From assembly GCA_022072085.1 (NCBI GenBank), contig JAJVII010000034.1:1-64000 (forward strand): 64,000 nucleotides of DNA. Direction: 5' to 3'. The translations under genes were made by a program, and so were the position numbers. The DNA comes from Phycisphaerae bacterium. GTDB lineage: Bacteria > Planctomycetota > Phycisphaerae > JAJVII01. The notes below the pieces were generated by a model. That model was not told where the DNA came from, did no database searches, and worked only from the letters and a program-made list of their open reading frames with translations. This document shows positions 123-16,737 of the stretch, piece by piece (position 1 is the first letter of the stretch; each line of letters begins with the position of its first letter).

Positions 123-770
123 TCACTTGGACGAGTAAAAATTCTTGCTGTATTTCTCGCTCCTAACAAGCACCCCAGAGTTGATCTGGCTCTGCAGATG
201 CCACGAAACGAATCGCTGCGACGTGATGATCAGTCCTGGCATCCCCCTTGCGTAGAAGATGTCTTCGCCCTGCCAAGTTGCCTCATTAACAATCACTCGA
301 GCATGTCTCAACAGCAATCCCCCCCGACATGTGCCGCAGGTCACTGGCGTCTCAAACTCCGCACCAGAAGCTTCAAGGTCAATCTTGGTTGAGCTAAGGG
401 TAGGTATAGCGACGAAATAGGATGGCAGATCACCCTCCAGGCGAGTTCCACCTCGTCGCTTCACACTGACAATCTCAGCCTTGCTGAGTACTTCGAGGCC
501 GCGCAGCCCCGCTTGACGGAATCTCTCCACAAACCTCTCGGTGAGAAGCAACTCCTCGTAGGGGCCAAAGCCAATATCACCGTATCGATTCGTCCACGGT
601 TCCAGCATGACCCGATAAGGCGGAAGCCACGGCAGCATGCTTATCGGCTCCCCGCACTCAGGACATCGCGTTGCATCACCAAAGTTGGACTTCCCAACTG
701 GCTCGTAGTCCGTCACGGCATACTTGCTGGTGTCATAGCTGGAGGGGTTGTGCAGCACATAGAAGTTCAT
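123..770 (-). CDS. Double-CXXCG (SitI6-like) immunity protein
   Basis: Predicted immunity protein that would neutralise the nuclease-like tip of the RHS protein encoded just upstream. It has two cysteine knuckles, CPECG at residues 36-40 and CGTC at 145-148. This is the layout of the double-CXXCG family known from Myxococcus SitI6-type immunity proteins; the four Cys probably hold a zinc. There is no signal peptide, so it should be cytosolic. Its ATG overlaps the RHS stop by 4 nt (ATGA), which suggests translational coupling of toxin and antidote. It looks less GC-rich than nearby genes, fitting transfer as a cassette. Family membership rests on motif pair, length and position. Binding to this particular toxin is inferred. 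Confidence 0.7.
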   Translation of the reverse strand: MNFYVLHNPSSYDTSKYAVTDYEPVGKSNFGDATRCPECGEPISMLPWLPPYRVMLEPWTNRYGDIGFGPYEELLLTERFVERFRQAGLRGLEVLSKAEIVSVKRRGGTRLEGDLPSYFVAIPTLSSTKIDLEASGAEFETPVTCGTCRGGLLLRHARVIVNEATWQGEDIFYARGMPGLIITSQRFVSWHLQSQINSGVLVRSEKYSKNFYSSK

Positions 771-3268
771 TCAGCACCTCCAAGCCCATTGGGGAACCTG
801 TTGATCAGGTCCGGCTGAGAGTACCGGTGACGGAGGTACGCCTCGAAGTCAGCAGGTGTTGCTTGATGGTTTCTTCGCACCCAATTTGTAACCTCAGCGT
901 CCAGCTCGCGGTGCCACCGTTGATAGCCACGGTGCGAAGGTAGATCCTTGGCTTGTGTGACGAATCGTGGATCACGTGCCTGATACTGCCCCCGAAGATT
1001 GGGGTGGGCTTCGGTTGCTCGCTGAACCTTCGTGGTTACAGCATGATGCTGTTGGCCCGTCAGGTTCTGGGCTCCCTTACTTGGGGCCGTTGCCCGGCTG
1101 GGGGTGGGCACCGGTATCTCATCGCCCGCCTTGACAACCTGCTTCTCCAGCTTCGCCGACGCCTTCTCGCCGGCCTCTTTAACGCCCTTTTCGACAGCTT
1201 CCTTGGTCGCTGTCTGCGCTCCCTTGGCCACCGCGCCCTCCGGCGCCTTGTAGAGCCCCTTTGCGCCTGAGATCGCGGACATCGTGAAGAAAGCAGCCTG
1301 CACGCCACAGAACAAGCCCGCGGTCCAACTGGCCAGGATTACGCTCGCGCCGCCGCCTGACTCTACGGCGGCCTGCGCCGTCAGAAACGCCGCATCCGCC
1401 AGTCCCCACTGCTCGATGGCCGCGGTGGCGTCGCTATAGGTGTCGTAGATGGACCAGGCCGTGCTGGCCGCTTTCAGCAGGATCCAGAACATGCCGCTGG
1501 GATCAGCCCCGTTGATGGGGTTGGAACCCACGTAGCCATAGCCGCCGAGGGTGGCCGGACTGCTCAGGAAACCGCTGAACGGATCCAACTGCGTGAATCC
1601 GCCTGGGCTGGAGTCATAGTAGCGGCCGCGCAGGTAGTGCAGGCCCGTTGAATTGTCAAAGAGCTGGCCTGAGTATAGCACGGCCGTGACGGCCTGGGAA
1701 GCGTCGAAGCCCAACGCGTTGCCGTAAGCATCGTAGGCGAACCGCGAGGCGACGGCCGGCTGGCCCTCGCCGCCGACCGGTTGCTCGCCGGCCGAGTCCA
1801 GCACCAGCCGCGTGCTGCCATGGCCATCGGTGACGAACCACAGGGGCGACCCACCGGCGGCGTCCGGCGACTGCTGGCCCAGGATTGCGGCGCCGATCGT
1901 GTAGCTCCGCGTGACGACCAGGCCGGAATCGCCGGCTTGCTTCTCCTCCAGGACCTGACTGTAGCCCGTCAGGTTGTTGTCATCAACCAGGTAAATGGTC
2001 GCCTTCACATCCTGGCCGTCGTCCACCGTCTGAGCAACCCGCAGGCCGTCGTCGTTGTAGGCAAAGTTGGTGGTCGTGATGCCGCCGCCTCCGCCGGTCG
2101 CATCCACGACGACCTCGGCCAGGCGATCCGCCAGGTCGTACGCATAGGTCGTCTCCTCCAGGACATCGCCGGCGTCGTCCAGTCCCTGGTACACCGTCTT
2201 ACCCGTCTGTTCGGTGCCCGCATCGGAATTGCCGTAGGCGTAGACCGTGAACCGGTCCGCGCCCTCCGTGCTGGAGTCCAGCGTCTCGGTCAGCAGGCGA
2301 TCGTTGGCATCGTAGGTGTAGGTCGTCGACTCCTCGATATCCTGGTCGCTGCCGAGGTCATGGGTCTTGCTCAGCCGATTGCCGTTCAGATCGAAAGCGT
2401 AGGTGTCGGTGTAGTTGAGGGCCTGGCCGGCGGCGTCATAGCCGTCGTAGGCCTCCCGGATGAGTCGTCCGTCATCGTCGTAAGTCCAGGCTATGTTCGT
2501 GACCTGGCCGTCTATCGTCTCCTCGGCGACAATCCGATTGCCGTTGGAGGCCAGCGTGTATTCGAAGGTGGCGAAGGCCGTGTCGTCGGAGTCGTCCCAC
2601 TGCGTGCCGCCATCGTGGGCATTTTTAACGCTGACCAGCCGGTCCATGTCGTCATAACCATAGGTCGTCAGCACGCCGTTGGGCGTGTGGACGAACTCCA
2701 GTTTCCCTTCCAGGTCGTAGCGGTACTCGACGACTTCCGGCGTGGTCAGTGGCGTGTCGTTGCGCTCGTAGACAGCCACCTGGCTGAGCCGGCCGAGGTC
2801 GTCGTAGGCGTAGCGGGTGTCGGTGACCGCCTTGCCGTCGTCAGCTACGCTCTCATGATCGGTATCCGCATCGCCAGTGTAGGTGCGGACAAGCCGATAG
2901 ACGCTGTCGTATTCGTAGTTGATGGCCCCTTCCGGCCGATCGACCCGGACCAGTTCCCACAGGTCGTTGTAGGTGTACGCGGTTGTGGCGGTCGTCTCGT
3001 CGGCAAAGTGCTGAACGACGCTAGTGTTGCGACCCAGGCCGTCGTAGCCGTAGGTGACGTATTCGGCCGGCGTTCCGGTGCCCTGGTCGTAATCCTCGAT
3101 GCTGGCGAAGTATCGCTTCTCCACGATCCGTCCGACGCGGGCCGCCGATTGTCCAGAGTCAGTTGCGGTCGCGATCGACGCCGCGGAAGACAGCGCCCCC
3201 GGACCGTCGATCGGCCCGGGGGCGGATGACGTTGCAGGGAGATGGCGGCGCCCATGCAGGTCGCTCAA
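767..3268 (-). CDS. RHS-repeat protein with C-terminal nuclease-like toxin tip, 5'-truncated
   Basis: Fragment of a polymorphic toxin. Residues about 48-480 are YD/RHS repeats (YDGLGRN, YDYDDMDRL-like units) that form the shell. The RHS core hallmark LHYLRGRYYDSS lies at about 543, and the shell ends at DPSGM near 590. A hydrophobic Ala/Gly stretch (592-670) and a basic linker follow. The last 95 residues carry HH (741-742), SHRGYQRWH (778-786) and a PDLINRFPNG end, resembling HNH/AHH-type nuclease tips of wall-associated RHS proteins. At 833 aa it is short for the family and lacks any signal peptide, PAAR or other delivery module. The first ~45 residues look like non-RHS sequence. The start used is TTG inside the upstream stop (TTGA). 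The true start is uncertain and the 5' part is probably lost. Confidence 0.75.
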   Translation of the reverse strand: MSDLHGRRHLPATSSAPGPIDGPGALSSAASIATATDSGQSAARVGRIVEKRYFASIEDYDQGTGTPAEYVTYGYDGLGRNTSVVQHFADETTATTAYTYNDLWELVRVDRPEGAINYEYDSVYRLVRTYTGDADTDHESVADDGKAVTDTRYAYDDLGRLSQVAVYERNDTPLTTPEVVEYRYDLEGKLEFVHTPNGVLTTYGYDDMDRLVSVKNAHDGGTQWDDSDDTAFATFEYTLASNGNRIVAEETIDGQVTNIAWTYDDDGRLIREAYDGYDAAGQALNYTDTYAFDLNGNRLSKTHDLGSDQDIEESTTYTYDANDRLLTETLDSSTEGADRFTVYAYGNSDAGTEQTGKTVYQGLDDAGDVLEETTYAYDLADRLAEVVVDATGGGGGITTTNFAYNDDGLRVAQTVDDGQDVKATIYLVDDNNLTGYSQVLEEKQAGDSGLVVTRSYTIGAAILGQQSPDAAGGSPLWFVTDGHGSTRLVLDSAGEQPVGGEGQPAVASRFAYDAYGNALGFDASQAVTAVLYSGQLFDNSTGLHYLRGRYYDSSPGGFTQLDPFSGFLSSPATLGGYGYVGSNPINGADPSGMFWILLKAASTAWSIYDTYSDATAAIEQWGLADAAFLTAQAAVESGGGASVILASWTAGLFCGVQAAFFTMSAISGAKGLYKAPEGAVAKGAQTATKEAVEKGVKEAGEKASAKLEKQVVKAGDEIPVPTPSRATAPSKGAQNLTGQQHHAVTTKVQRATEAHPNLRGQYQARDPRFVTQAKDLPSHRGYQRWHRELDAEVTNWVRRNHQATPADFEAYLRHRYSQPDLINRFPNGLGGAE

Positions 3269-4659
3269 TGCCGCAGGTCGCGGGTGGCAGCCGTCAGCGC
3301 CGTCGTGCAGAAGGCGGTGACCATGTCGGGGCTGCCCTCGTTCCAGCGGTCAGCCATGTTCGTCCAACTCCCGTCGTCGTTCTGGAGCGCGTTGAGCTGG
3401 TTGACCAGGTCGGCGCGCCAGTTGTGCTTCTGGCCATCGGGGGTGGTGATGACGTCGGCCGACTTGCCGGCGGCGGCCAGGGCCCGGGCGAAGGTCATGT
3501 AGTAGTAGTAGAGGCCCTGGAGCTTCTGTTTCTCCGGCAGGCCGGGGTTCTGCTGGAGCGTGTAGTTCTCGGCGATCCACTTGAAGGCGTCCTTGACGCG
3601 CGGGTCGTCCATGGTCAGCCCGCTGTAGAGGAAGCTCATGAAGCCCGCATAGGTCATGCTGCCGTAGCTGCGCAGGCCGCTCTTGCTCTCGCCGGGCAGG
3701 TCGACACTGCCTGCCTTGCTCTGTCCGACGGCCTTGGACGGGTCGGCGTCGCTGGCCGGGGCGTATATGAACCCGCCGTCATTTCCGACGGCGTAGGTGC
3801 CGACCTTGTTGCTCTCGCTGCGGTTCTGCGAGTGTTCCAGGAAGACCACGACTTTGCTGAACATGGGGTCGTCGGCCGTGATGTAGCCGGCGCTCTTGAG
3901 GTCGTTCAGTGTGTTGACCGACATGGCCGTGTTGGACATGTCCGGCCGCGTTTCCTTGCCTTTCTCGCCGTAGCCGAACCCGCCGTAGACGGCGTTGCTC
4001 TTGTCCACGCCGTCCTTGCTGTCCCACTGGCAACCGCGGAGGTAGGTGAGCCCCTCCTTGATCTGCGCGTCATAGGGCTTGCCGGTCATCTTCGACTGGA
4101 TGTAGACCAGGGCGCTGAGGCTGATGGAGGTGTTGTAGTTGGCCAGTTCCTGGGTCACGAAGGCGCCCTTCATCTCGCCCTCGGTCTTCTGCGTGGACAG
4201 GACGAACTTGACGGCCTTGGTCACCGGTTCGGAGTCGACCGGTTGGCCGGCTTCGACCAGGGCCTTGACCGCCAGCGCCGTCACCGCGGGCCCGTACTTG
4301 GAAACCCACGAGCCGTCCGGGGCCTGCGACTTGAGCAGGTAGGCCCGCGCCTTGGCCAGCATCTCGTCAGCCCGGGCGACGATCTCCTCGGCCGTGACAG
4401 CCGGCTTGGCTGTCGGTTGGGGCAGCGTCGTCACTGGCGGCGGGGGCTCGGGATTGGTGGCCGTTTCGCCAGGCCCGCCGGTCTTGGCCGTGGTCGTCTC
4501 GCTCTGCTGATCGGTCTGATGGGCCAGCGGCTCAGTCTTGGCGGTACTGGCTGGCGGGATCGGTTCTTGCGATACTTGCTTCTTGCAGCCGGCCAGCGAC
4601 AGGCCCGCGATCACGAGCAAGGCGAGCGTCCAACGGTTCCAACGGGTGCGAGCGAGCAT
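3265..4659 (-). CDS. Lipoprotein with prenyltransferase/squalene-oxidase repeats
   Basis: Exported lipoprotein of 464 aa with lipobox LAGC (Cys25) after a hydrophobic signal. A Thr/Pro-rich linker (30-95) leads to alpha-alpha repeats of the prenyltransferase/squalene-cyclase-like kind: AYLLKSQAPDGSW near 112, GLTYLRGCQW near 205, and LNALQNDDGSW near 428. Such repeats form an alpha/alpha toroid. In planctomycete lipoproteins the fold usually has no known enzymatic activity, and I see no cyclase DxDD motif. A perfect sigma-54 promoter lies 53 nt upstream, and an NtrC-type regulator gene follows that. Function unknown; probably a periplasmic or outer-membrane scaffold or binding protein. Confidence 0.75.
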   Translation of the reverse strand: MLARTRWNRWTLALLVIAGLSLAGCKKQVSQEPIPPASTAKTEPLAHQTDQQSETTTAKTGGPGETATNPEPPPPVTTLPQPTAKPAVTAEEIVARADEMLAKARAYLLKSQAPDGSWVSKYGPAVTALAVKALVEAGQPVDSEPVTKAVKFVLSTQKTEGEMKGAFVTQELANYNTSISLSALVYIQSKMTGKPYDAQIKEGLTYLRGCQWDSKDGVDKSNAVYGGFGYGEKGKETRPDMSNTAMSVNTLNDLKSAGYITADDPMFSKVVVFLEHSQNRSESNKVGTYAVGNDGGFIYAPASDADPSKAVGQSKAGSVDLPGESKSGLRSYGSMTYAGFMSFLYSGLTMDDPRVKDAFKWIAENYTLQQNPGLPEKQKLQGLYYYYMTFARALAAAGKSADVITTPDGQKHNWRADLVNQLNALQNDDGSWTNMADRWNEGSPDMVTAFCTTALTAATRDLRH

Positions 4660-4711
4660 GTGAGTCTCCCTTTCCTGGGTTCACAGCCTGGATTCATCCA
4701 TAATGCCAGCG

Positions 4712-4727
4712 TGCAAACGGCGTGCCA
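4712..4727 (-). promoter_or_regulatory. Sigma-54 (-24/-12) promoter
   Basis: On the minus strand the sequence reads TGGCACG-CCGT-TTGCA. It matches the RpoN consensus TGGCACG-N4-TTGCW at every fixed position and has the preferred C before TGG. Transcription should start near 4701, giving a leader of about 42 nt to the lipoprotein ATG at 4659. The nearly identical site at 42611-42626 differs only in the spacer. An enhancer-dependent activator is required; the adjacent NtrC-type gene is an obvious candidate. Confidence 0.85.
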
Positions 4728-4836
4728 GCGGTGTTGCCGGCGGGACATTCTTCCTAACTCTACTCACGCGAGCGTCTTGTATCAATCGACTGGACTCCGC
4801 GGCCGCCGCCTCAGCCGATCGCTCGGCACAACCGCA

Positions 4837-4850
4837 GTGCAATGCTGCAC
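4837..4850. promoter_or_regulatory. Possible activator-binding dyad upstream of the sigma-54 promoter
   Basis: A small dyad, GTGCA-ATGC-TGCAC, lies about 110 nt upstream of the -24 element, a usual distance for an NtrC-family enhancer site. It is only 5 bp per arm and differs from the dyads upstream of the other sigma-54 promoter, so this is a suggestion only. Confidence 0.25.
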
Positions 4851-4865
4851 AGGAAGAGGTCGCTG

Positions 4866-6299
4866 TTACGCTGAGCCGTCGGAGTCTGCCAGGCCCAGGT
4901 CGCGCAGCTTCGTGCGAAGGGTGTTGCGATGCAGGCCCAGCCGTTCGGCCGCCGCAGACTGGTTGCCGCCGGCGTGGGCCATTGCCCGGCGGATCAGTTC
5001 GCGTTCCAGTTGCTCGACGGCCCGCGGGTGCAGGGGACCGGTCTGCGACTCGATGGCGTCGATGAACCGGGCCAGGCCCGCCTGTGCCTCGTCGGCGGCG
5101 TGGCCGGCGGGCGGGCGGCCGTGCTGGACCGCCTCGGGCAGATGCGCGGGCAGGATTGGGCGGCCGGCTGACGCCACCGCCGCCTGGCGGACGGCGTTCT
5201 GTAGTTCGCGGACGTTGCCCGGCCATGAATACTGCTCCAGCAGCCGCAGCGCCTCGGGCGAGATCGGCGGGGCCTGGCCTCCTGAGGCCAGTGCGACGAA
5301 GTGGCGGGCCAGCGGGCCGATGTCGCTTACCCGGTCGCGCAGCGCGGGCAGTTCGATCTGAATTTCCGCCAGCCGGTAGAACAGGTCCTCGCGGAAGTGC
5401 CCTGCGGCGATGGCTTCGGAGAGATCGCGGTTGGTGGCCGCCAGCACGCGGACGTCCTGCACGGTGACCGAGTTCACTGAGCCCAGCCGCTCGATGCGGT
5501 GACTGTCCAGGAAGCGGAGCAGCTTGACCTGCGCCGGCGGGGGCAGTTCGCCCACCTCGTCCAGGAAGAGCGTGCCATGGGCCGCCGACTCGAATCGGCC
5601 CGGCTTGTCGGCGGCGGCGCCGGTGAACGCGCCGCGGGCGTAGCCGAACAGTTCGCTCTCGACCAGGCTCTCGGGCAGGGCGCCGCAGTTGATCGCGACG
5701 AAGGCGTTGTTGCGTCGGCCGCTGTGCTCGTGGATCGCCCGGGCGACGACTTCCTTGCCCGTGCCGGTGGCCCCGCGGATGAGCACCGAGGCGCTGGAGG
5801 TCGCAACCTTGACGATCTGCTTGTAGACCTCCTGCATCGCCCGGCTGGCGCCGATGATCTGTGACGCCTCGGCGGGGTCAGCCGATTCGCCGGCCCGGGC
5901 GGGCTGGGCGGCCCGGCTGGCGAGGGCCTGCTCGACCAGTTCGCGGGCGCGGTCGAGGTCCAGCGGCTTGACGAGATAGTCGAACGCGCCGCCGCGGATG
6001 GCGCGGGTGACGGTTTCCATCGAGCCGTAGGCCGTCATAACGATGACGCAGGCGTCAGGGTCGTCGTTGCGAATGGATTCCAGCACTTCCAGCCCGCTGC
6101 TGTCAGGCAGCCGCACGTCCAGGAAGATCACTTCCGGCCGATTCTTGCGGTAGAGTGCCAGCCCGCGGTCGCCGGTGGCCGCGACCGAGACGGCGTGGCC
6201 TCGCTGGGCGAAGTAGCGCTGGAATGCGAAACAGATGGCCTCTTCGTCGTCGATGACCAGGATGTCGGCTGCGCGGGTCATGAGTCGTCGCTCCGGCAC
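4866..6299 (-). CDS. NtrC-family sigma-54 response regulator
   Basis: Phosphorylation-dependent activator of sigma-54 RNA polymerase, 477 aa. The receiver domain (12-125) has acidic residues DD17-18, phospho-acceptor D61 and K111. The AAA+ domain (148-385) has Walker A GATGTGKE at 176-183, the sigma-54 contact loop GAFTGA at 223-228 and Walker B LFLDEVG near 244. A Fis-type helix-turn-helix (about 430-470, [20 protein letters not shown]) ends the protein. All parts needed for activation are intact. The first Met or an internal one at residue 7 could start it. It lies upstream of a sigma-54 promoter and is divergent, with a 54-nt gap, from the split permease. The kinase at 7356-8852 is the likely partner. 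Confidence 0.93.
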
Positions 6300-6353
6300 G
6301 AAGATGGTATCTTACCGGAACTACGTCGCTCCGACAGCCAGCCGGACGGGAAA

Positions 6354-6845
6354 ATGCGAATGATCGTGCTCTGGGTCGCCACCGCCGCCTGCCTGCTCGC
6401 CTCCTTCGTCGCCGATCGGCGGCGGACGCTCCGGGCCCTCAAACTCGCCGGGGTCCGGATCGGTCGGATCATGCCGGCCTTCCTCGTGATGCTGGTCCTG
6501 TTCGCGGTGGGCATCACGCTCGTGCCCGAGGCCGTCGTCAGCCGCCTGCTGGGGCAGGAGAGCGGCGTCGCGGGCGTGGCCGTCGCGGCGGCCATCGGCT
6601 CGGTGACGCTGATGCCGGGCTTCATCGCCTTCCCGCTGTCCGGGGCGCTGCTGCGCGAGGGGGTTCCCTACATGGTGCTGGCGGCGTTCACCTCGACGAT
6701 GATGATGGTGGGCGTGGTCACATATCCGCTGGAGCGGCAGTACTTCGGCCGCGGCGTGACGCTCATCCGCAACGGCCTGTGCCTGCTGATCGCCCTGGTC
6801 GTCACCGTCGTCATGGGCCTGGTGTTCAAAGAGATTCACTGGTGA
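6354..6845 (+). CDS. Permease half-protein A (UPF0718/ArsP-type)
   Basis: Integral membrane protein of 163 aa with about five hydrophobic helices, resembling the N-terminal half of PF03773 permeases (ArsP/UPF0718). The family-type loop PGFIAFPLSGALLREG sits between helices. The open frame extends upstream into the regulator gene, but ATG at 6354 follows a GACGGGA ribosome site and begins directly with a hydrophobic helix. Its TGA overlaps the GTG of the next gene (GTGA), so the two halves should be co-translated and probably assemble as one transporter. Substrate unknown; organoarsenical or metal export is known for some relatives. Confidence 0.75.
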   Translation: MRMIVLWVATAACLLASFVADRRRTLRALKLAGVRIGRIMPAFLVMLVLFAVGITLVPEAVVSRLLGQESGVAGVAVAAAIGSVTLMPGFIAFPLSGALLREGVPYMVLAAFTSTMMMVGVVTYPLERQYFGRGVTLIRNGLCLLIALVVTVVMGLVFKEIHW

Positions 6846-7366
6846 AGTGGAGCGGCAGGCAGGTCGGCTACGTCGTTCTGCTGGCTGCGTTCGCCGGCTG
6901 GGTGGGGTATTCGTACTGGCGCGGGCCGCAGGTCGGCCGCGACATGGCCCGCACATTCGCCCAGACGCTGGGCGTGATGCTCAAGCTGCTGCCCTGCGCG
7001 TTCGTTCTGATCGCCCTGTTCGATGTCTGGGTGAAGCGCGAGACGGTCGAGCGGCAGTTCGGCCGCGGCTCGGGCCTCCGCGGCTACTTCTGGAGCATCC
7101 TGCTGGCCGGCATGACCGTCGGCGGGCTCTACGTCGCTTTCCCGGTTGCCTGCTCGCTGTTCCGCAAGGGCGCCAGCCTGTCGGTCGTGCTGGCCTACGT
7201 CAGCCTGGCCGGCGTCTGCCGCATCCCCATGACGCTGTTCGAAATCTCGTTCATGGGCGTGACGTTCACCGCCGTCCGCCTGGCCGTCTCGATCCCCCTG
7301 GTGATCCTTACGTCGCACGTCCTCGGCCGCATCCTCGAACGCCGCGGATATGTCGTCACGGAGTGA
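6842..7366 (+). CDS. Permease half-protein B (UPF0718/ArsP-type)
   Basis: Second half of the split permease, 174 aa, starting at GTG 6842 inside the stop of the first half. It has four to five membrane helices and a loop GGLYVAFPVACSLFRKG that mirrors the PGFIAFPLSGALLREG loop of the first half. This agrees with the internal two-fold repeat of the family. The stop region overlaps the 3' end of the convergent histidine kinase gene by 11 nt. The layout implies an obligate heterodimer in the inner membrane. The link to the flanking two-component system is inferred from position only. Confidence 0.75.
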   Translation: MKWSGRQVGYVVLLAAFAGWVGYSYWRGPQVGRDMARTFAQTLGVMLKLLPCAFVLIALFDVWVKRETVERQFGRGSGLRGYFWSILLAGMTVGGLYVAFPVACSLFRKGASLSVVLAYVSLAGVCRIPMTLFEISFMGVTFTAVRLAVSIPLVILTSHVLGRILERRGYVVTE

Positions 7367-8852
7367 CGCCCGCCGCCGGCAACTCGAACCAGAACGTCGC
7401 TCCGCTGTCGGACGAGTCGTAGCTGATGCGGCCGCCCAGGCGATCGACCGCCTGTCGGCTGATATAGAGGCCCAGGCCCGTGCCGCCGGCCTTGGTCGTC
7501 ACGAACGGGTCGAAGAGGTCCTCGTCGGGCGGCAGCTTCACGCCCTTGCCGGTGTCTGTGACGGCGAAGCGGACACCGCCGTCGGATCGTGACAGCCGCA
7601 GCGTCATCACGCCGCCGTGCGGCATGGCGTCGGCGGCGTTGAGCATCAGGTTGAGCATGACCCCGCGGATCTGGCTGGACTGGCCGCGGGCCGCCGGGAC
7701 CGCCGCGTCCAATCGCCGCTCGATAGAGATGGACTGGTGTCGGCAGCGGCCCTCGATCAGTTGCAGGACCGATTCGGCCAGCCGGGCAAGGTCCAGATCC
7801 TCCAGCCGCGCGCACGCCGCCGCGTCCTGCCCGCCGCTGTCCGAAGCGTTCTCGCTCACCGACGCCAGTTGCAGCAGCTCCTGGAGGTAGAGGTCCATGC
7901 GGTCGATCTCGCGGACGATCAGTTCCAGGCTGCGGTCGGATGAGCCGGTCGGTCCCAGCGCGTCAGCCAACACGCGGGCGTTCATCTTGATCCCGCTCAG
8001 CGGATTCCGCAACTCGTGTGCGACCGAGGCGGCCATCTGCCCCAGCGTCGCCAGCCGGGCCGAGCGGGCGAGTTGGGCGCGGGCCTCTGCCAGCCGGGCC
8101 AGCAAGGCGTCGAACGACCGCCGCAGCCGGACCATCTCCGACGGTCCGGGCGGGCCGTGTCGGCCGGCGGGCTCGTGCTGGGCAGCCGGTTCGGCGTCGA
8201 CTGGCGCGGCCGAATCGCTCTGACGGGCGATGTGGTCCATGCGGTCAGCCAGCCGGCGCACGGGCCTGGAGATCGTCAGCGACACCGTCGAGGCAACGAG
8301 CGTGGCCGCCAGGACCGCCGCCAACGTCAGGCCCGCGATGGTCCACGCGGCGTCTTTCTTGGCCGACGCGAGCTGGGCCTCGGGCACGAGGATGAACAGC
8401 CGCTGCCACGGGCCACTGAGCCCGGGACGATCCGGAATGGAAGTTGACCGCGCGTAGTAGGAATGACCGTCCAGTGCGATCCGTGGAGGCCGACCGGGAT
8501 ACGAGTTGCGGTCGAGGAACGTATTGGACGGTATGCGGCCGTCAGCCAGCATCCGGTCCAGTTGGGCGCGGGCGGGCTCGGGCAGGCTGGCGGCGGCGAG
8601 GGATCGGCCTTCCCCGGGCCCGGCGGCGAACTGGGCGTCGAGGATTTCGCTGAACTGCTTCATCAGTTCGTCGGTCGCCTCCAGCCGCAGCCGCGAGACC
8701 AGGCCGGCGACGTTCACCAGCGGCTGGTCCACCAGCCGCCGCTCGATGCCGCGGCCGGCGACCTCGATGCTCATCCAGCCGACGGCCGCCCCGACGGCGG
8801 CGACCAGCAGGTTCATCGCGACGATCATCCGCGTGCGAATGGACGTCCGCAT
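7356..8852 (-). CDS. Membrane sensor histidine kinase
   Basis: Sensor kinase of 498 aa. TM1 (about 9-27) and TM2 (170-193) bracket a periplasmic sensor of about 140 residues. A HAMP segment (195-255), a HisKA box with phospho-acceptor H279 (SVAHELRNPL) and an HATPase domain follow, with an N box (NLMLNAADAM), DTGKG and GGTGLGL motifs. The open frame begins 13 codons earlier, but ATG 8852 begins at the membrane anchor. It lies on the same strand as the NtrC-type regulator at 4866-6299 but is separated from it by the oppositely oriented permease pair. Kinase and regulator are therefore probably cognate but not in one transcript. The signal is unknown. Confidence 0.9.
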   Translation of the reverse strand: MRTSIRTRMIVAMNLLVAAVGAAVGWMSIEVAGRGIERRLVDQPLVNVAGLVSRLRLEATDELMKQFSEILDAQFAAGPGEGRSLAAASLPEPARAQLDRMLADGRIPSNTFLDRNSYPGRPPRIALDGHSYYARSTSIPDRPGLSGPWQRLFILVPEAQLASAKKDAAWTIAGLTLAAVLAATLVASTVSLTISRPVRRLADRMDHIARQSDSAAPVDAEPAAQHEPAGRHGPPGPSEMVRLRRSFDALLARLAEARAQLARSARLATLGQMAASVAHELRNPLSGIKMNARVLADALGPTGSSDRSLELIVREIDRMDLYLQELLQLASVSENASDSGGQDAAACARLEDLDLARLAESVLQLIEGRCRHQSISIERRLDAAVPAARGQSSQIRGVMLNLMLNAADAMPHGGVMTLRLSRSDGGVRFAVTDTGKGVKLPPDEDLFDPFVTTKAGGTGLGLYISRQAVDRLGGRISYDSSDSGATFWFELPAAGVTP

Positions 8853-8898
8853 GGCGCCATGATAGCGACAGACGCCGGACAATGGGAGCATCCGGCGA

Positions 8899-9666
8899 TT
8901 ACGCCTTGCCCCACTTCTTGAGCGAGTCGAAGCTCATTCGCACGGCCTCCAGCGGCGGACGCTGCGGGCAGCGGTCCTGCTCGACGATGTACCACTTCAC
9001 GCCGACCTCGTCGGCGGCCTTGAATATCGGAGCGAAGTCGATCACGCCGTGGCCGACCTCGGCGAACGTGGGCTCGGCGCCGGCGGTCATGTCCTTGAGG
9101 TGCAGCAGTTCGCAGCGGCGGCCGAGGCGGCGGATCATCTCGACCGGGTCGTGCCCGGCGAACTTCGCCCAGTAGACGTCCAGTTCGGCGGTCACCTTTT
9201 CTCCGGCGGCTTCGAGCAGGATGTCGTACCCGTCGCGGCCGTCGAACTTCCTGAATTCGAACGCGTGGTTGTGATACGCCAGGCCCAGCCCGGCGTCGGC
9301 GAACCTGCGGGCGGCGTCGGCCAGCGTTCGGCCGACCGTCTTGAACCCGTCGGCGGTGTGATACTTCTCGTCCAGCCAGGGCAGCACGACGCGCGTGGCG
9401 CCGACGGCTTTGTGCAGGGCGATGACCTCGTCGGCCTTGTCGCGGATCGCGTCCAGGCCGGTGTGGTTGCTGACGGCCTTGAGGTTGAGCTTCTTCAGCA
9501 GGTCGGCCAGTTGCTGGGGCGACAGGCCATAGGTTCCCGCCAGTTCGACGCCGGCGTAGCCTATCCTGGCCACCTTGGCCAGCGTGCCGGGGAAGTCGGC
9601 CCTGCAATCGTCGCGAAGGGTGTACATCTGGAGTCCGACCGGGATGCGGGTCTTGGAGCTTGCCAT
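8899..9666 (-). CDS. Sugar phosphate isomerase/epimerase (xylose isomerase-like TIM barrel)
   Basis: Protein of 255 aa of the AP-endonuclease-2/IolE-type TIM-barrel family, which isomerises or epimerises sugars and inositols using a divalent metal. Metal-ligand type segments are visible: AGVELAG near 38, ELDVYWAK near 148, HLKD near 178 and a late WYIVEQD near 225. The start was set at ATG 9666, preceded by AAAGGATCC, because the longer frame adds 62 residues without domain character. There is no signal peptide, so it is cytosolic. It stands alone, divergent from the large lipoprotein at 9851. Substrate not deducible. Confidence 0.8.
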   Translation of the reverse strand: MASSKTRIPVGLQMYTLRDDCRADFPGTLAKVARIGYAGVELAGTYGLSPQQLADLLKKLNLKAVSNHTGLDAIRDKADEVIALHKAVGATRVVLPWLDEKYHTADGFKTVGRTLADAARRFADAGLGLAYHNHAFEFRKFDGRDGYDILLEAAGEKVTAELDVYWAKFAGHDPVEMIRRLGRRCELLHLKDMTAGAEPTFAEVGHGVIDFAPIFKAADEVGVKWYIVEQDRCPQRPPLEAVRMSFDSLKKWGKA

Positions 9667-9850
9667 GGCTGGATCCTTTCTGTTGGGCAAAGCGAACAGG
9701 GTAGCAACATCGGCCCCCGACGCAAGGGGGCCTGTTGAACGCCCACGAGCCCGCAGATAGAATCGGTCCGGTTCCGGTCGAATCGCCCGGGCGACCCGGA
9801 CCGAATGCGGCGCATCGCAGGTCCTGCCTTCCCATCCGAAAGGATCCGAC

Positions 9851-12800
9851 ATGTCGCGACACTCTCACTTGCACCTGTCACCGACGCGGGTGCTAACGAC
9901 ACTGGCCGCTCTGCTGATGGCGTCGGCTGCCGGCTGTGTGCGCTATGAACAACCTGACGGGGGCTCAGCCGTCCGGATGCTGCCGACGCCTGTGGCGTCG
10001 GGGGCGCAGGCGGTCCAGCCCCCGCGGGCCTACATGCTCGCGACCGGCGCGCTGACCGTCGCCCACCGCCAACTCGGCCTGCGCTACGCCGTGTTGACGC
10101 CGAGCTTTGACGGCGTGGTGGGCCCGTTCAACCTGCTGGCGCCGGTTCCGCTGAGCGAACTGCTGCGGCAGGTCGCCGACGCGACCAACACCCGCATCAC
10201 GCAGGTCAACGGCGTGACGGTGTTCGAGGGGCGCGGCTCGCCGACGCTTAGCGCGGCGGCGCTGGACGCGGCCGTCGCCGAGTTGGCCAGCCCCGGCCAG
10301 AGCGTGGCGGCGCGCAGCGCTCCGGCCGGAGGAGAGCCGGTCGTGGCGGGGCCGGCCGCCGGCGGGCCGTCGCTCCAGGCGGTCTTCGACGCGGGGCGCG
10401 CGTTCCAGCTTCGCGGGCTGGCGCCGCTGTCACGCCTGACCGACAGCGCCGACGAGCGCGTCCGGACGATGGCCGTGCGGCTGCTGGCTGAAACCGAGGG
10501 CGACCTGATGCTCGCGGAGTGGCCCGGCCGCGTGTCGGTCTTCGAGCTGATCCACGACGATCTGGACACCGAGTCGCTGATGTGGGCGATGGAGCAGGGC
10601 GGCCCGACCGGCGGGCTGGTCTGGGCGTCGGCGCTGAAGGTGCTGGCCTCGTCGCGGCACGCCGTGCTCACGCGGCACACATGGGAATACGTCTTCTACA
10701 AGACGCCGGGTACGATGCAGCTTGCGATGTGGGCCGTCGGACGCGTCAACGACGACTCTGCGGCCCGCGCCATGCGCAACCGCCCGGAAAAGACCTTCAC
10801 CAACTGGGAGTCCGACCGCTGGCTGGCGGCGATCAGCCTGGCGCGGCTGGACGTTGGCCGAATGGTGACGTTGTCCAAGAGCCCCGTTGCGCGGGTTCGC
10901 CAGGCGGCGGTCTTCGGTGCGGGCTTCGCGCCGCACGACCGCACCAGCGCCGCGGGGATCGTCGAACGCGGCCTGAAGGACGCGGACCCGACGGTGCGGT
11001 TCCTGGCCTGCCAGTCGGCGGCCCGGCTGGGCGGTGAGGAATGGGTCAAGCGGCTCAGTTCCATCGCGATGGATCGCACGCTGAGCGACGCGGACCGCAG
11101 CGCGGCCCTGGTCGGGCTGGCCCAGGTAAACGACCCCGGCGCCCGCAAGACCGTCGCGATGGCCTGCGAGGGCCAGACCCCCGCGGTGCGGGCGACGGCG
11201 GCCCGGATGCTGGGCGACATCGGCGGCATCGCGGCGCGCGACACGCTGCTGGGCATGACCGAGGACGCATCGGCGGCGGTGCGGGCCGAGGTCGTCTGCT
11301 CGCTCGGGCGGATCGGCGACAATGCGTCGGTCGCCAAGGCGTCGGCGATGCTGCTGGCGACGGACGCGACGACGGATCTGCGGATCGCGGCGATGATCGG
11401 CCTGGGCCGCGGCCGCAGCCCGGCGGCTGCCCCGGCGCTGTCCAAGGTGGCGCTGGACCCGACGCTGCCGGCGCGGGTGCGCGAGTACGGCATTCGCGGG
11501 CTGGCGGAACTGGCCGACCGGGCCGGCTCGGCAACGCTGCGGCAGATCGCGGACCTCAAGTCGCCGGTGCACGACTTCGAGGCCGTTCGGCACATCGAGC
11601 TGGCGACGCCGCAGCAGACAGCCGATTTCGTGATCCCCTTCCTGACCGCCGGCGACCGCTCGGACGTCTGCGCGGCGGCCAACCGGCTTTCGACGCTGGC
11701 CTACGGGCCGGGCGTGCGGGCGCTGCTGGAAGGCGGCGACGTGTTCGACAACTCCGAACGCATGCAGCACATGTGGGGCGCGGAGCGGTCGGCCAGCCCG
11801 AGCGTGACGGCGATGCTCATCGAGGCGGCGGCGAGCAACCGCGACAGCATCCGCAAGGCGTCGGCCAACTCGCTCCAGGGCGAAATCGACCCGCGGGCGA
11901 TCGACGCGCTGCTGGGGATGTGCCGCGACGGCAACGCCGCGGTGCGGCGGCTGGCGGCCAAGAGCCTTGGCTTCAACCTCGACCCGGCGGCTGTCCCCGT
12001 GCTTATCGACCTGGCGCTCAACGACGCGTCGGAGGCCGTCTACCCGGCGGCCATTCGCGCCCTGAGATGCCGCGACTGGGCCGGTCGTTCCGACGTGAAG
12101 GCCTGCTTCGCGAAGCTGGCCGCCACTGGACGCGACATCGGCGTGATCCCGCCCGAGACCCCTTCGGTCCGCGAGCAGCCGGACAACACCTTCGTCCTGC
12201 GCAAGTGGGCGGCCAACTATGACGATCTGGACGTCACCAACGTGACCTACGAGTCGAGCCTGACCTACGACAGCGACCGTGGCCGCGTGATCCAGTGGGG
12301 CGCCCACGGCCGCCGCGCCGACTCGCCGCAGGACGGGCAGACCTGGTTCTATGACGTCGCGGGCAACGAGTGGGACCGGCTGATCGACACCCGCCAGTGG
12401 CCCAACGGGCTCTGTCTGACCTGGGGAACGACCTACGACCCGGCCAACGAAGTGCTGGTCTCGCCGGTCAGCGGGCACGGCGGGCACGGGTGGGTCAACT
12501 ACCTGCGGGCCAATATGTCGAATTCCATCCCCTGGGTGATGGACGCCCGCACGGACCAGTGGCGCCGGGCCGCCCCACCGGAGGGGTTGGACTATGGCCT
12601 CAACCAGGTGCAGGGCAACTTCGCGCCGCAATACGACACGGTCGTCTTCCACTGGGGGCAGATCCAGACCTATGACGCCTACGACAACGCCTGGACCAAG
12701 TGGCGGGAGAAGAACAAGCGGCCGGCCTACGGCGACTCGGCCGGCTGGGATCCTGTTGTCGGCCGACTGATCTCGCTGTCGCCGGACAAGGTCGGCCGAA

Positions 12801-14068
12801 TGGAGACCTGGTCGTTCGATCCGCGGACGATGCTCTGGACGAACCTGAACGCGGCCAACGCGCCGCCGGGGCTGGTCAGCCGGCTGGTGTACGACTCGAC
12901 CAACGACGTGATGATAGGCTTCGCGTCGCGCGGCGGGCGGTCGAGCCTGGAGCCGTGGGTCTACCACCTGCGGCAGAACAAGTGGGAGCAGCCGCCGCCG
13001 CCCGACCCGGCGCCGCATTTCGGCAGCATCGACAGCGCCTATGACAGCCGCAACAACGTGGTCGTCTTCAGCGGCGGATGGGACAGCGGCTTCAGCGGCG
13101 AGACGACCCAGCGTGAGACCTGGACCTACCGCTACAAGGCCGGCACAGGTTCGGCGGTCCCGGCCAAGCTGCCGGGCCTCCAACTCGCCACCGGCAAGGG
13201 CGGGGCGGTGAACCTCTCGTGGGTCGCCGTCAAGGGCGCCGCCTTCGTCCGCGTGCTGCGCGGCAGCGGAGTCCACGCGTGGGAGGCGGACCTGACTCCG
13301 CTCAAGACGCTCGCCGGCGACGCGGCGGAGTTCGCCGACAACGGACTGGACGTCGCCAAGACCTGGTGGTACCGAGTCGAGGCCCTGGACGCCGCAGGCA
13401 AGGTCGTCGCCCAGTCGCGGCTGGCCCGCACGCGCCCCGCGGCGGTCGCCGAGGTCTGGGCCGGCTACACGGCCGGGGGCGTGCAGGTGAATTGGCTGGC
13501 GTCGGCCAGCGGCGACGTGGCCGGCTATCGCGTCTACCGCGCCGAGGTCGACTGGAAGAACCCCTACAACGAGAACTACCCTGCGTGGGACGTGGGCGCC
13601 AAGCTCAAGCTGGTCAGCGGCGACAAGCTCGTCGGCTCGACGAGTTTCCTGGACACGACCGCTGCCGCCGAAGGCGACGGCGACGAGGTGACCTGGCCGA
13701 TGCTGTCCAGCTACGTCGTCAAGCCGGTGAACCTGTGGGGCGTCGAGGGCGGCGGCTCGCCCGCGGTGGCGGCGATCCCCGACGTGCCCGGCCCGGTCCG
13801 GGTCATCCCCTGGGCCGACGGCCGACGTCTGGTGATCTGGGATCCGCCGCGCAGCGAAGCGACCGTCGGCTTCCACCTGACTCGCATGGACAGTTGGCAC
13901 CCGTACTCGGTCTACCGCTACAACGGCGCGCCGTTGAGTTGCATGGGCTTCTACGACGACGAGCCGTTCCCGACCAACGACCGGCGGCGGTACTACGTCA
14001 TCGGCGTGGACGGGCACGGCGTGATGGGCATCCCCAGCAGCGGCGAATGGAGCCACGGGTTTCCGTGA
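9851..14068 (+). CDS. Giant modular lipoprotein: STN-like, HEAT, kelch and FN3 modules
   Basis: Exported protein of 1405 aa with a lipobox-like SAAGC (Cys29). Residues about 60-125 resemble a secretin/TonB short N-terminal (STN) domain. Roughly 190-760 is a long HEAT solenoid (repeated ARxLGDIG/ARDTLLGM and SLGRIGD-like helices). Residues 800-1095 repeat a Tyr-Asp kelch/galactose-oxidase type blade (YDSDRGRVIQWG, YDPANEVLVSP, YDSRNNVVVFSGG). From 1097 three fibronectin-III-like segments follow (near 1097, 1200 and 1313). All modules are binding folds; I see no catalytic motif. It probably forms an operon with the transglutaminase-like gene 60 nt downstream. Envelope scaffolding or polymer binding is plausible. 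Exact role unknown. Confidence 0.75.
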   Translation: MSRHSHLHLSPTRVLTTLAALLMASAAGCVRYEQPDGGSAVRMLPTPVASGAQAVQPPRAYMLATGALTVAHRQLGLRYAVLTPSFDGVVGPFNLLAPVPLSELLRQVADATNTRITQVNGVTVFEGRGSPTLSAAALDAAVAELASPGQSVAARSAPAGGEPVVAGPAAGGPSLQAVFDAGRAFQLRGLAPLSRLTDSADERVRTMAVRLLAETEGDLMLAEWPGRVSVFELIHDDLDTESLMWAMEQGGPTGGLVWASALKVLASSRHAVLTRHTWEYVFYKTPGTMQLAMWAVGRVNDDSAARAMRNRPEKTFTNWESDRWLAAISLARLDVGRMVTLSKSPVARVRQAAVFGAGFAPHDRTSAAGIVERGLKDADPTVRFLACQSAARLGGEEWVKRLSSIAMDRTLSDADRSAALVGLAQVNDPGARKTVAMACEGQTPAVRATAARMLGDIGGIAARDTLLGMTEDASAAVRAEVVCSLGRIGDNASVAKASAMLLATDATTDLRIAAMIGLGRGRSPAAAPALSKVALDPTLPARVREYGIRGLAELADRAGSATLRQIADLKSPVHDFEAVRHIELATPQQTADFVIPFLTAGDRSDVCAAANRLSTLAYGPGVRALLEGGDVFDNSERMQHMWGAERSASPSVTAMLIEAAASNRDSIRKASANSLQGEIDPRAIDALLGMCRDGNAAVRRLAAKSLGFNLDPAAVPVLIDLALNDASEAVYPAAIRALRCRDWAGRSDVKACFAKLAATGRDIGVIPPETPSVREQPDNTFVLRKWAANYDDLDVTNVTYESSLTYDSDRGRVIQWGAHGRRADSPQDGQTWFYDVAGNEWDRLIDTRQWPNGLCLTWGTTYDPANEVLVSPVSGHGGHGWVNYLRANMSNSIPWVMDARTDQWRRAAPPEGLDYGLNQVQGNFAPQYDTVVFHWGQIQTYDAYDNAWTKWREKNKRPAYGDSAGWDPVVGRLISLSPDKVGRMETWSFDPRTMLWTNLNAANAPPGLVSRLVYDSTNDVMIGFASRGGRSSLEPWVYHLRQNKWEQPPPPDPAPHFGSIDSAYDSRNNVVVFSGGWDSGFSGETTQRETWTYRYKAGTGSAVPAKLPGLQLATGKGGAVNLSWVAVKGAAFVRVLRGSGVHAWEADLTPLKTLAGDAAEFADNGLDVAKTWWYRVEALDAAGKVVAQSRLARTRPAAVAEVWAGYTAGGVQVNWLASASGDVAGYRVYRAEVDWKNPYNENYPAWDVGAKLKLVSGDKLVGSTSFLDTTAAAEGDGDEVTWPMLSSYVVKPVNLWGVEGGGSPAVAAIPDVPGPVRVIPWADGRRLVIWDPPRSEATVGFHLTRMDSWHPYSVYRYNGAPLSCMGFYDDEPFPTNDRRRYYVIGVDGHGVMGIPSSGEWSHGFP

Positions 14069-14128
14069 CCGATGCGGGCCGGCGCTGCTCAAATTGCACA
14101 AACCGCCGGCCGCCGATACCATCATGGT

Positions 14129-15568
14129 ATGAGGCGTGCCGCGGTTTTCGTTGCTCTGCTGCCGGGTTTCCTGGCTGTCTCGGCGCCGGTGAGCGGCCAG
14201 GAGGACTCCAGCCAGACCGTGGTGATCTACTTCGTCCTGACCAATTCCTCCGACAGGCCCGCGACCGATGTCCGCTTCTGGGCGGTGCTGCCGGCGACCA
14301 ACGCCTACCAGGACATCGAGTCGATGACGATCTGGCCCGAGCCGGCGGTCAGCGTGCCCGACCGGCTCGGCCAGAAGCGCGTCGGCTGGTCGCTGGACCG
14401 CATCGAGCCCGGCAGCTCGGTCACCCTGATGGCGCTCATCCACGCGACGACCCACGCCGTGCGGATCGGCCGCGACTCCAAGCCGAAGGACAAGCCGTCG
14501 GCTGAGGAGCAGTTGGACTATCTCCGCGACGACCCGGACTGGTTCGACCTCAAGGAGGTGGCCGGGGCGACCCGGGGTTGGATCGCCCGACCCGCCGACG
14601 ACGACACCGGACGAGCCAGGCAGATCTTCGAATCCATCCGCAAGCAATGCCGCTACGTGCTGGACAACAAGCGTGACACGGCCGTTGATGTCATCCGCAC
14701 CCGGCAGGGCAGTTGCACCGAACTGGCGTTCGTCTTCATCGGCATGGCCCGGGCCAACGGCATTTCCGCCCGGATGTGCACCGGATGGGTCAATCGCAGC
14801 GGCGGTTCGCTGGACACGGTCAACCACCGCTGGGCCGAATACTGGGACGCCCGCTACGGATGGGTTCCCGTGGACCTGTCGCGGGCGATCAACCATGCAG
14901 CCAGCCGACCGGCTACCTACGACCCGAACCTCTACTTCGGCAGAGTGGCCGGGCAGTTCCTCGTCGTCCGCGACGACGGCGTGCAGCGTCCGAACGACAA
15001 CAACTGGAGCGGCTACCGGGCCAGCTTCCGCGGGGCGCTGCTCAACGTCGGACGGGCGTCGGCCTGGCAGGCGACGGGCAGCGCCGACGCCGAGCGCAAG
15101 CTCTTCGCCCAGGCGACGGCTTGCATGGACCAGATCCTCGCCGGCAAACCTCCGCCGTCACTGGGCGACTGGGCAGCCAAGGATTCCCCGCTCGCGCGCA
15201 ACCTGCTGCCGGGATTCCTGGGTTGCGGCTCGGACGCTCTGCGGCGGGAGGCGGCCAGGCGGCTGGCGGAGGGGCCCGATCCCAGCGCGTCAGCGGCGCT
15301 GTTGGCGACCGCCGGCCAGACCGCCGACGCAGTTTATCGGCAGTACCTCGTCGGACTGATCGACGGGATGCTCGCCAACCCCACGGCCAAGTTTCGCGGC
15401 GCGGTGGTCGCGGAGATCGGCCGGGCGCGTCTGGAACTTCTCCGCCCGCAGGCCGAGCGGATGCTTAAGGACGTCAGCCCCCTGGTACGCCAGTCGGCGC
15501 AAAGGACGATCGACCGCCTGGACAAGGCGAAGGCCACCACCCAGCCCGACGGCGGGCAGGACGACTGA
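14129..15568 (+). CDS. Secreted transglutaminase-like protein with HEAT tail
   Basis: Protein of 479 aa with a signal peptide (first ~24 residues, cleavage near VSG-Q). A DUF11-like beta region comes first. The transglutaminase/protease-like core carries the Cys-His-Asp triad in TRQGSCTELAFVF, VNHRWAEYW and WVPVDLS (about residues 190-255). The last ~120 residues are helical repeats like HEAT. Such cores act as proteases or amidases on envelope polymers or crosslink proteins. ATG 14129 was chosen because it begins at the signal peptide; no ribosome site precedes it and a palindrome covers it. It follows the giant modular lipoprotein and is convergent with lpxB. Confidence 0.8.
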   Translation: MRRAAVFVALLPGFLAVSAPVSGQEDSSQTVVIYFVLTNSSDRPATDVRFWAVLPATNAYQDIESMTIWPEPAVSVPDRLGQKRVGWSLDRIEPGSSVTLMALIHATTHAVRIGRDSKPKDKPSAEEQLDYLRDDPDWFDLKEVAGATRGWIARPADDDTGRARQIFESIRKQCRYVLDNKRDTAVDVIRTRQGSCTELAFVFIGMARANGISARMCTGWVNRSGGSLDTVNHRWAEYWDARYGWVPVDLSRAINHAASRPATYDPNLYFGRVAGQFLVVRDDGVQRPNDNNWSGYRASFRGALLNVGRASAWQATGSADAERKLFAQATACMDQILAGKPPPSLGDWAAKDSPLARNLLPGFLGCGSDALRREAARRLAEGPDPSASAALLATAGQTADAVYRQYLVGLIDGMLANPTAKFRGAVVAEIGRARLELLRPQAERMLKDVSPLVRQSAQRTIDRLDKAKATTQPDGGQDD

Positions 15569-15577
15569 CGCGACGGT

Positions 15578-16726
15578 TCAGTGGGGAGCGACGATTTCCG
15601 CGACCAACTCCGCCGTGCGCAGCGAGGCCCGCGACGCCGCCAGCGGCGCGGTCAGGGCCTTCAATTCCTCGCGCAGCCGGGCCAGGCCGCCGGCGTCAGC
15701 CAGCAGTGACGCTGCCGCGTCGATCACTTCGCGGTCGTCGCCGAACCACGGCATGAGTTCGGGCACGAGTTCGCGGGCGGCCAGGATGTTCACCAGCGAC
15801 AGCCACGGCGTCTTAACGACGTGTCGGCCGACCGCGTTCCACTGCCACCGCTTCACGCGATACATGATGACCATCGGTACTCCGAAACGGGCGACTTCGA
15901 GCGTCACCGAGCCGGAGACGACCAGAGCGGCGTCGGCCCAGGCGAGCACGTCGTGGATGCGTCCGGTCGCGACGGTGACGGGGACCTCGGCGGTGGCGAG
16001 GTAGGGGGCGATGTCGATCGAATGGCCGTGGCCCGGCGCCGGGGCCGCCAGCGCGAAGACCGCGTCGGGGTGACGGCGTTTCAACTCGGAGGCGGCGCGG
16101 AGTTGGGTCGGCAGGTGGTCGGCAATCTCGTGCCCGCGGCTGCCGGGCAGCAGGGCGACCTTGGGCGAGCCGGCCGGCAGGTTCGCGGCGGCCCACGCGG
16201 TATCAGGGACGAAGGAGGCCAGCGGCTCGAACAGCGGATGGCCGACAAACTCGGCGTCGATGCCGCGGTCGCGGAAGTATTGCTCCTCGAACGGCAGGAT
16301 GCAGGCGAGCTTGCGAACGCGGGCCCGCAGCCGGGCGGTCCGCCAGGCCCCCCACGCCCAGAGCTGCGGGGCGATGTAGTAGAGCACGGGCACGGCGTGA
16401 CGTCGGCTGCGCCCGGCCAGCGGCAGGTTCACCGTCGGCGAGTCGATCGGGATGTGCAGCGCCACCGGCTCGCGCTCGACGTAGCGGTCGAAGCGGAAGT
16501 AGTGGCCGAGCATCTCCGGCACGCGGGCGAACGAACCTGCCAGCATCGCGGAGCGCGACGTGAGGTCGACCAGCAGTTCGGCGCCGGCGTCGGCCATGCG
16601 CGGGCCGCCCATCGCGACGCAGCGTGCGTCGGGGATGCGGGCGCGGATGGCCCGGATGAGATTGCTCCCGTGCTGGTCGCCGCTGGCCTCGGCCGCGGTC
16701 AGGATGATGAGCGGGCCTTGCGTCAT
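15578..16726 (-). CDS. lpxB: Lipid-A-disaccharide synthase
   Basis: GT-B glycosyltransferase that joins UDP-2,3-diacylglucosamine and lipid X to make the lipid A disaccharide at the inner face of the cytoplasmic membrane. The start MTQGPLIILTAAEASGDQHG is the family signature for the nucleotide-sugar fold. YYIAPQLWAWG, FVGHPL, LLPGSRGHEI and SGSVTLEVA further support it. The length, 382 aa, is typical. A longer frame of 76 Arg-rich residues was rejected. It begins 11 nt after the stop of the TPR/PDZ lipoprotein gene, so the two are probably co-transcribed. It shows that this organism makes LPS. Slightly unusual is the replacement of the usual ENP region by EREPVALHIPIDSP. Confidence 0.92.
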   Translation of the reverse strand: MTQGPLIILTAAEASGDQHGSNLIRAIRARIPDARCVAMGGPRMADAGAELLVDLTSRSAMLAGSFARVPEMLGHYFRFDRYVEREPVALHIPIDSPTVNLPLAGRSRRHAVPVLYYIAPQLWAWGAWRTARLRARVRKLACILPFEEQYFRDRGIDAEFVGHPLFEPLASFVPDTAWAAANLPAGSPKVALLPGSRGHEIADHLPTQLRAASELKRRHPDAVFALAAPAPGHGHSIDIAPYLATAEVPVTVATGRIHDVLAWADAALVVSGSVTLEVARFGVPMVIMYRVKRWQWNAVGRHVVKTPWLSLVNILAARELVPELMPWFGDDREVIDAAASLLADAGGLARLREELKALTAPLAASRASLRTAELVAEIVAPH

Positions 16727-16737
16727 TTGACCCCGGC

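Follow-up and report, generated by a model that had tools for sequence, protein, structure and literature searches.

The known orphan toxin–immunity modules have neither initiation nor export signals and can recombine onto a main gene (PMC3150448, PMC3967940), and an orphan Rhs of Salmonella has been shown to act as an internal toxin-antitoxin (PMC7043789). In Myxococcus xanthus, MXAN_0049 confers immunity to the AHH nuclease MXAN_0050 (PMC6627406, PMC12077131). The table of Zhang et al. 2012 gives Imm11 together with Tox-AHH in planctomycetes; it also lists the pair of Tox-URI2 (Y and KxG motifs) and Imm39, for proteobacteria only (PMC3482391). Here we describe an RHS frame of 833 aa with a TTG start (767-3268, minus strand), followed by a coupled immunity gene, in a stretch of 64,000 nucleotides (the window) from a Phycisphaerae bacterium. 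The locus is probably an orphan, that is, displaced, RHS C-terminal cassette of which the toxin is silent and the immunity protein is made, and further cassettes on another contig of the genome (C12) very likely belong to the same array.

The larger part of the frame is a shell remnant of YD repeats and an Rhs core (about residues 34-600; 1469..3169, minus strand), delimited by profile matches and by alignment to relatives. Profile searches matched RHS_repeat (PF05593) at 5.1e-13 over six stretches, YD repeats (TIGR01643) at 3.4e-14 and, in residues 512-593, a complete Rhs core (TIGR03696) at 5.8e-15; the DPSGM motif was also found. The frame, its repeats, the core DPSGM region and the coupled immunity gene, as described in a previous reading of the sequence only, are all present. 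Since residues ~34 to 597 align with relatives without a frame break, the frame is more than a chance opening. The best relatives among 61 genomes were a frame of 4,419 aa in G022 (42% over residues 61-593) and one of 5,943 aa in G025 (39% over residues 33-597). The match sets in at about residue 3,379 of the G022 frame and about residue 5,131 of the G025 frame, which places the start of RHS homology near residue 34 of our frame. A profile search of the frame found no N-terminal delivery domain and the relatives run 3,400-5,100 residues further upstream, in line with the proposed absence of the delivery half. The sequence-only reading had named as adverse outcomes an RHS gene continuing upstream in another reading frame and relatives that begin at the same residue; upstream of the 833-aa frame no such continuation was found, and among the relatives compared none starts at residue ~34. 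In a wider search of genome contigs, the sole named RHS relative was a weak one in a proteobacterial MAG. Judging from these alignments, we conclude that the 833-residue frame represents the 3' portion of an RHS gene of far greater length.

The neighboring upstream gene encodes an unrelated lipoprotein of 464 aa with squalene-hopene-cyclase-like repeats (3265..4659, minus strand; PF13243, 6e-8). It has relatives in 47 of the 61 genomes, and the long ones match to residue 453-463 of 464, so the gene is intact. The TTG of the RHS frame overlaps its TGA stop codon (TTGA), and about 100 bases separate this stop from the start of RHS homology. Residues 1-33 of the frame, which are not RHS-like and by eye not hydrophobic, come from translation of the lipoprotein gene's 3' flank. 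This flank includes a terminator-like hairpin without a T run, with a 13-bp GC-rich stem, 40 bases past the lipoprotein stop (3194..3224, minus strand), and codons 15-25 of the RHS frame read through it. The junction between flank and RHS remnant lies approximately at 3169..3193 (minus strand), with homology to the 5,943-aa relative from residue ~34, and no convincing repeats that could mark an insertion were found there. The proposal of an orphan tip–immunity cassette that adjoins an unrelated, undamaged gene is supported by the intact lipoprotein gene and by the position at which RHS homology sets in. Farther upstream, beyond the lipoprotein gene, the genes for an NtrC-type response regulator and a sensor kinase (4866-6299 and 7356-8891, minus strand) apparently form an ordinary two-component pair, as judged by eye from the translations.

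Behind the core, a linker (residues ~601-735; 1064..1468, minus strand) leads to the toxin tip (residues 736-833 plus stop; 767..1063, minus strand), which carries the motif HH...DPRFVT...HRGYQRWHR. Linker homology ends near residue 735, and near residue 736 there is a sharp boundary at which third-position GC drops from 0.80 in the linker to 0.54 in the tip. The corresponding values are 0.82 for the shell, 0.63 for the immunity gene and 0.90 for the lipoprotein gene.

The tip had no significant match in Pfam or NCBIfam. Tox-AHH (PF14412) was considered as its family and rejected: there was no Pfam match, and in a profile comparison with an alignment of AHH domains from relatives, 12 columns around HH aligned with a probability of 0.3%. 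Nor was any PF14412 match found in the same genome. In the structure model of the tip (pLDDT 90), HH lies beside a strand (4-6), a second strand spans 34-36, and a helix (40-63) bears the conserved H and WH. This layout is reminiscent of HNH-type nucleases, and nuclease activity is predicted; a fold search of the model in PDB and BFVD returned no match. The tip is rare, being found in 6 of 392 genomes of the phylum and 3 of 397 genomes of the class. Wherever most of it is intact (four of four places: the window, C12, G038 and G402), the immunity gene is adjacent, and in G402 the tip, which comes after a HINT remnant, is truncated as well. Relatives of the tip were not found in viral contigs, and plasmids held relatives of neither tip nor immunity protein. 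Similar tips presumably end myxobacterial wall-associated/RHS proteins, which we take as a lead only. A decayed copy of the tip, in which similarity stops after HRGY, was seen in another genome of the phylum (L099, G360:C196, 2829-3221), and the immunity protein had no match in that genome.

The immunity gene (123..770, minus strand; 215 aa) begins in an ATGA overlap with the stop of the tip. The protein has two CXXC pairs (C36/C39 and C145/C148) in the motifs CPECG and CGTCR, only the first being a true CXXCG, and its four Cys are invariant in six relatives; it occurs in 7 of the 392 genomes of the phylum. It had been assigned to the double-CXXCG family, which proved overstated: it scored 16.6 bits against TIGR02264 (cut-off 100.15) and 15.4 bits against PF09535 (cut-off 25). 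With scores far below the cut-offs and CGTCR as the second motif, membership in the SitI6 double-CXXCG family was rejected, and no TIGR02264 match above the cut-off was found among the 392 genomes. Imm11 (PF07791) did not match the window protein and matched two of the six aligned members, best the G300 relative (3.7e-8). The further suggestion that a planctomycete partner would extend the range of the family is weak, as Imm11 with Tox-AHH is already listed there (PMC3482391). The structure model (pLDDT 80) matched MXAN_0049 (6A4C; E 1.8e-7, probability 1.00, TM 0.56), and the next structure match had an E of 0.5. Its predicted fold relates the protein distantly to the SitI6 family; by profile test it is not a member. 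We tentatively suggest, with more doubt than confidence, that the tip represents a toxin family that neither Pfam nor NCBIfam covers (HH...DxRFVT...HRGYQxWHR), that its partner is a four-Cys immunity protein with the fold of MXAN_0049, that it sits on more than one chassis (RHS and HINT), and that this genome keeps only an orphan array of it, an immunity store lacking a delivery gene to match.

The window opens at the extreme end of contig C17, where the assembly cuts the locus. The first bases of contig C12 fall within another copy of the tip, 94% identical to that of the window over 78 residues, and another immunity gene, 83% identical, comes next. After this pair, the linker recurs with 96% nucleotide identity over 242 bp, covering residues 649-736 of the window frame, and is joined to a different tip. 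This third cassette (L005, G000:C12, 1081-2063) pairs a Tox-URI2-like tip, which has Y and KVG motifs, with an Imm39 gene (2.2e-20). The window cassette is thus one of at least three in the genome. Orientation and order fit C17 running into C12; as both contigs end at breaks, the single array is an inference, and we consider it very likely. Directly after the cassettes on C12, a short frame (L005, G000:C12, 2204-2524) resembles the start of an IS transposase by eye and had no profile match.

Divergence between the copies differed along the cassettes. Synonymous divergence (dS) was 0.25 for the tip and 0.28 for the immunity gene between cassettes 1 and 2, and 0.07 between the linker copies of cassettes 1 and 3, from which it follows that the linker was duplicated or exchanged more recently. 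The dN/dS between copies (0.11 for the tip, 0.29 for the immunity gene) argues that both are, or at least once were, functional. The sequence-only reading had offered a tip acquired by swapping as one option, and this is supported: the same linker carries different tips, and third-position GC drops at the boundary. On sequence grounds, we conclude that this is tip swapping at a sharp boundary in what is very likely an orphan RHS cassette array.

In the relatives G022 and G025 a full RHS gene is followed by displaced 3' RHS fragments, which is likely to be the parent architecture of the window array. The 4,419-aa gene of G022, with its displaced 3' fragments and the main gene in place, occupies 2131-19071 (L038, G022:C54), and one of these fragments bears an AHH tip (PF14412, 7.0e-13). 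In G025 (L039 and L040, G025:C24), a displaced RHS fragment of 323 codons comes after the 5,943-aa frame, close to where the contig ends. The earlier account of an orphan cassette was largely right in kind and missed both the C12 cassettes and such arrays behind intact main genes. It had also proposed looking in this genome for a full-length RHS gene with a homologous shell. None was found in the assembly by a search that recovered the expected relatives in other genomes. Residues 1-648 of the frame have no other copy in the genome, and the upstream shell pieces of the relatives matched nothing in it. As no main gene with a matching shell was found, the genome may hold immunity only, or the main gene may lie in an assembly gap. 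Two long RHS-type frames are present elsewhere in the genome (L042, G000:C29, 7801-17212, and L043, G000:C32, 2-4516; 2,161 and 2,503 codons); only the C32 frame resembles the window gene detectably, and only in its core (39% over ~90 residues), which makes both unlikely recombination partners.

What the locus expresses was assessed from its translation signals. No usable Shine-Dalgarno sequence was found at the TTG of the RHS frame or at GTG49, GTG164, GTG199 or ATG208, and the TTG is merely where the open frame begins. The immunity gene has the Shine-Dalgarno sequence GGAGGTG inside the tip coding sequence (775..781, minus strand), 4 nt before its ATG, and the same sequence stands before the C12 immunity copy. 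Promoter evidence at the locus consisted of weak consensus matches only. These signals are compatible with the following scheme. About 2.4 kb from the 3' end of a giant RHS gene, with its immunity gene, would have been placed behind an unrelated lipoprotein gene. As the frame is without start and export signals, the toxin is probably neither made nor exported from this locus. The immunity protein is probably made from its own strong ribosome-binding site and would, given the predicted neutralization, protect against relatives carrying the same tip. With shell and linker in common, the tip and its immunity gene could be transferred by recombination to an intact RHS gene. Two points count against the orphan reading: the shell piece that remains (~560 residues) exceeds that of many orphans, and the assembly yielded no main gene with a matching shell.

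By analogy with the Salmonella orphan Rhs (PMC7043789), an internal toxin-antitoxin role is possible, in which a low level of tip would be made from an internal start and the module kept for addiction or growth control in its own cell. Such a start would be provided by an in-frame GTG at residue 680, which is preceded at 5 nt by GGAGG and lies in a linker stretch common to C12; a 5-nt match, however, easily arises by chance in such GC-rich DNA. The low dN/dS of tip and immunity gene favors this role, but it reports past selection, possibly in another host, and promoter support is limited to the weak consensus matches. We regard this role as unlikely. Less likely still is a chimeric join in the assembly, with the true, full-length RHS gene located elsewhere. 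The assembly is a draft of 72 contigs, and repeats adjoin the locus, which sits at a contig end, but the junction itself is 3.2 kb inside the contig. Moreover, with residues 1-648 single in the genome and the relatives' upstream shell pieces unmatched there, no repeat is present at the junction to cause a false join.

The stop and start codons do overlap (TTGA) and no stop interrupts the frame, so that the whole 833-aa protein might be made by translational coupling from the lipoprotein gene and act as a short working RHS effector. This would have to proceed without a Shine-Dalgarno sequence and through 33 initial codons that read the hairpin in the lipoprotein 3' flank; no relative starts there, and the shell is part only of the homologous repeat region. 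We consider such an effector highly improbable. The displaced orphan cassette is the explanation that we prefer: the window shows a 5'-truncated RHS gene with core and tip, no start signal, and a linked immunity gene with its own Shine-Dalgarno sequence.

Like the orphan rhs-CT/rhsI of Salmonella Typhimurium LT2 (STM0292; PMC3967940), the window locus comprises a core end, a tip and an immunity gene without initiation and export signals, and has core sequence in common that would be usable for recombination; unlike it, the window keeps a larger shell piece behind an unrelated gene, with no main gene found in the assembly. The succession of fragment-plus-immunity cassettes, with toxin parts that have no start signals and immunity genes that are translatable, resembles the orphan cdiA-CT/cdiI arrays of E. 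coli EC93 and EC869 (PMC3150448), whereas the window array is RHS, not CdiA, and is split over two contigs. The predicted immunity fold and the pairing with an HH-motif tip recall MXAN_0049/MXAN_0050 (PMC6627406, PMC12077131), although identity is 12% and the window tip is not of the AHH family. As in SitI6 (TIGR02264), which accompanies SitA6 AHH toxins (PMC8546572), four Cys form two pairs and there is a weak profile match in the C-terminal half; the score is far below the cut-off, the second motif is CGTCR, and the carrier is RHS, not a lipoprotein toxin. The third cassette on C12, with its Y...KVG tip and Imm39 at 2.2e-20, is like the Tox-URI2/Imm39 pair (PMC3482391).

The locus offers a testable toxin–immunity pair, with a toxin unnamed in Pfam and an immunity protein that links to the Myxococcus nuclease-immunity fold. 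The arrangement, of which the locus is a well-preserved example, is already known from enterobacterial orphans and leaves the understanding of orphan RHS modules unchanged. Beyond the well-studied enterobacteria, the locus clearly documents tip swapping: two unrelated tips, each with its matching immunity gene, follow the same linker, and the swap boundary is visible in sequence and composition alike.
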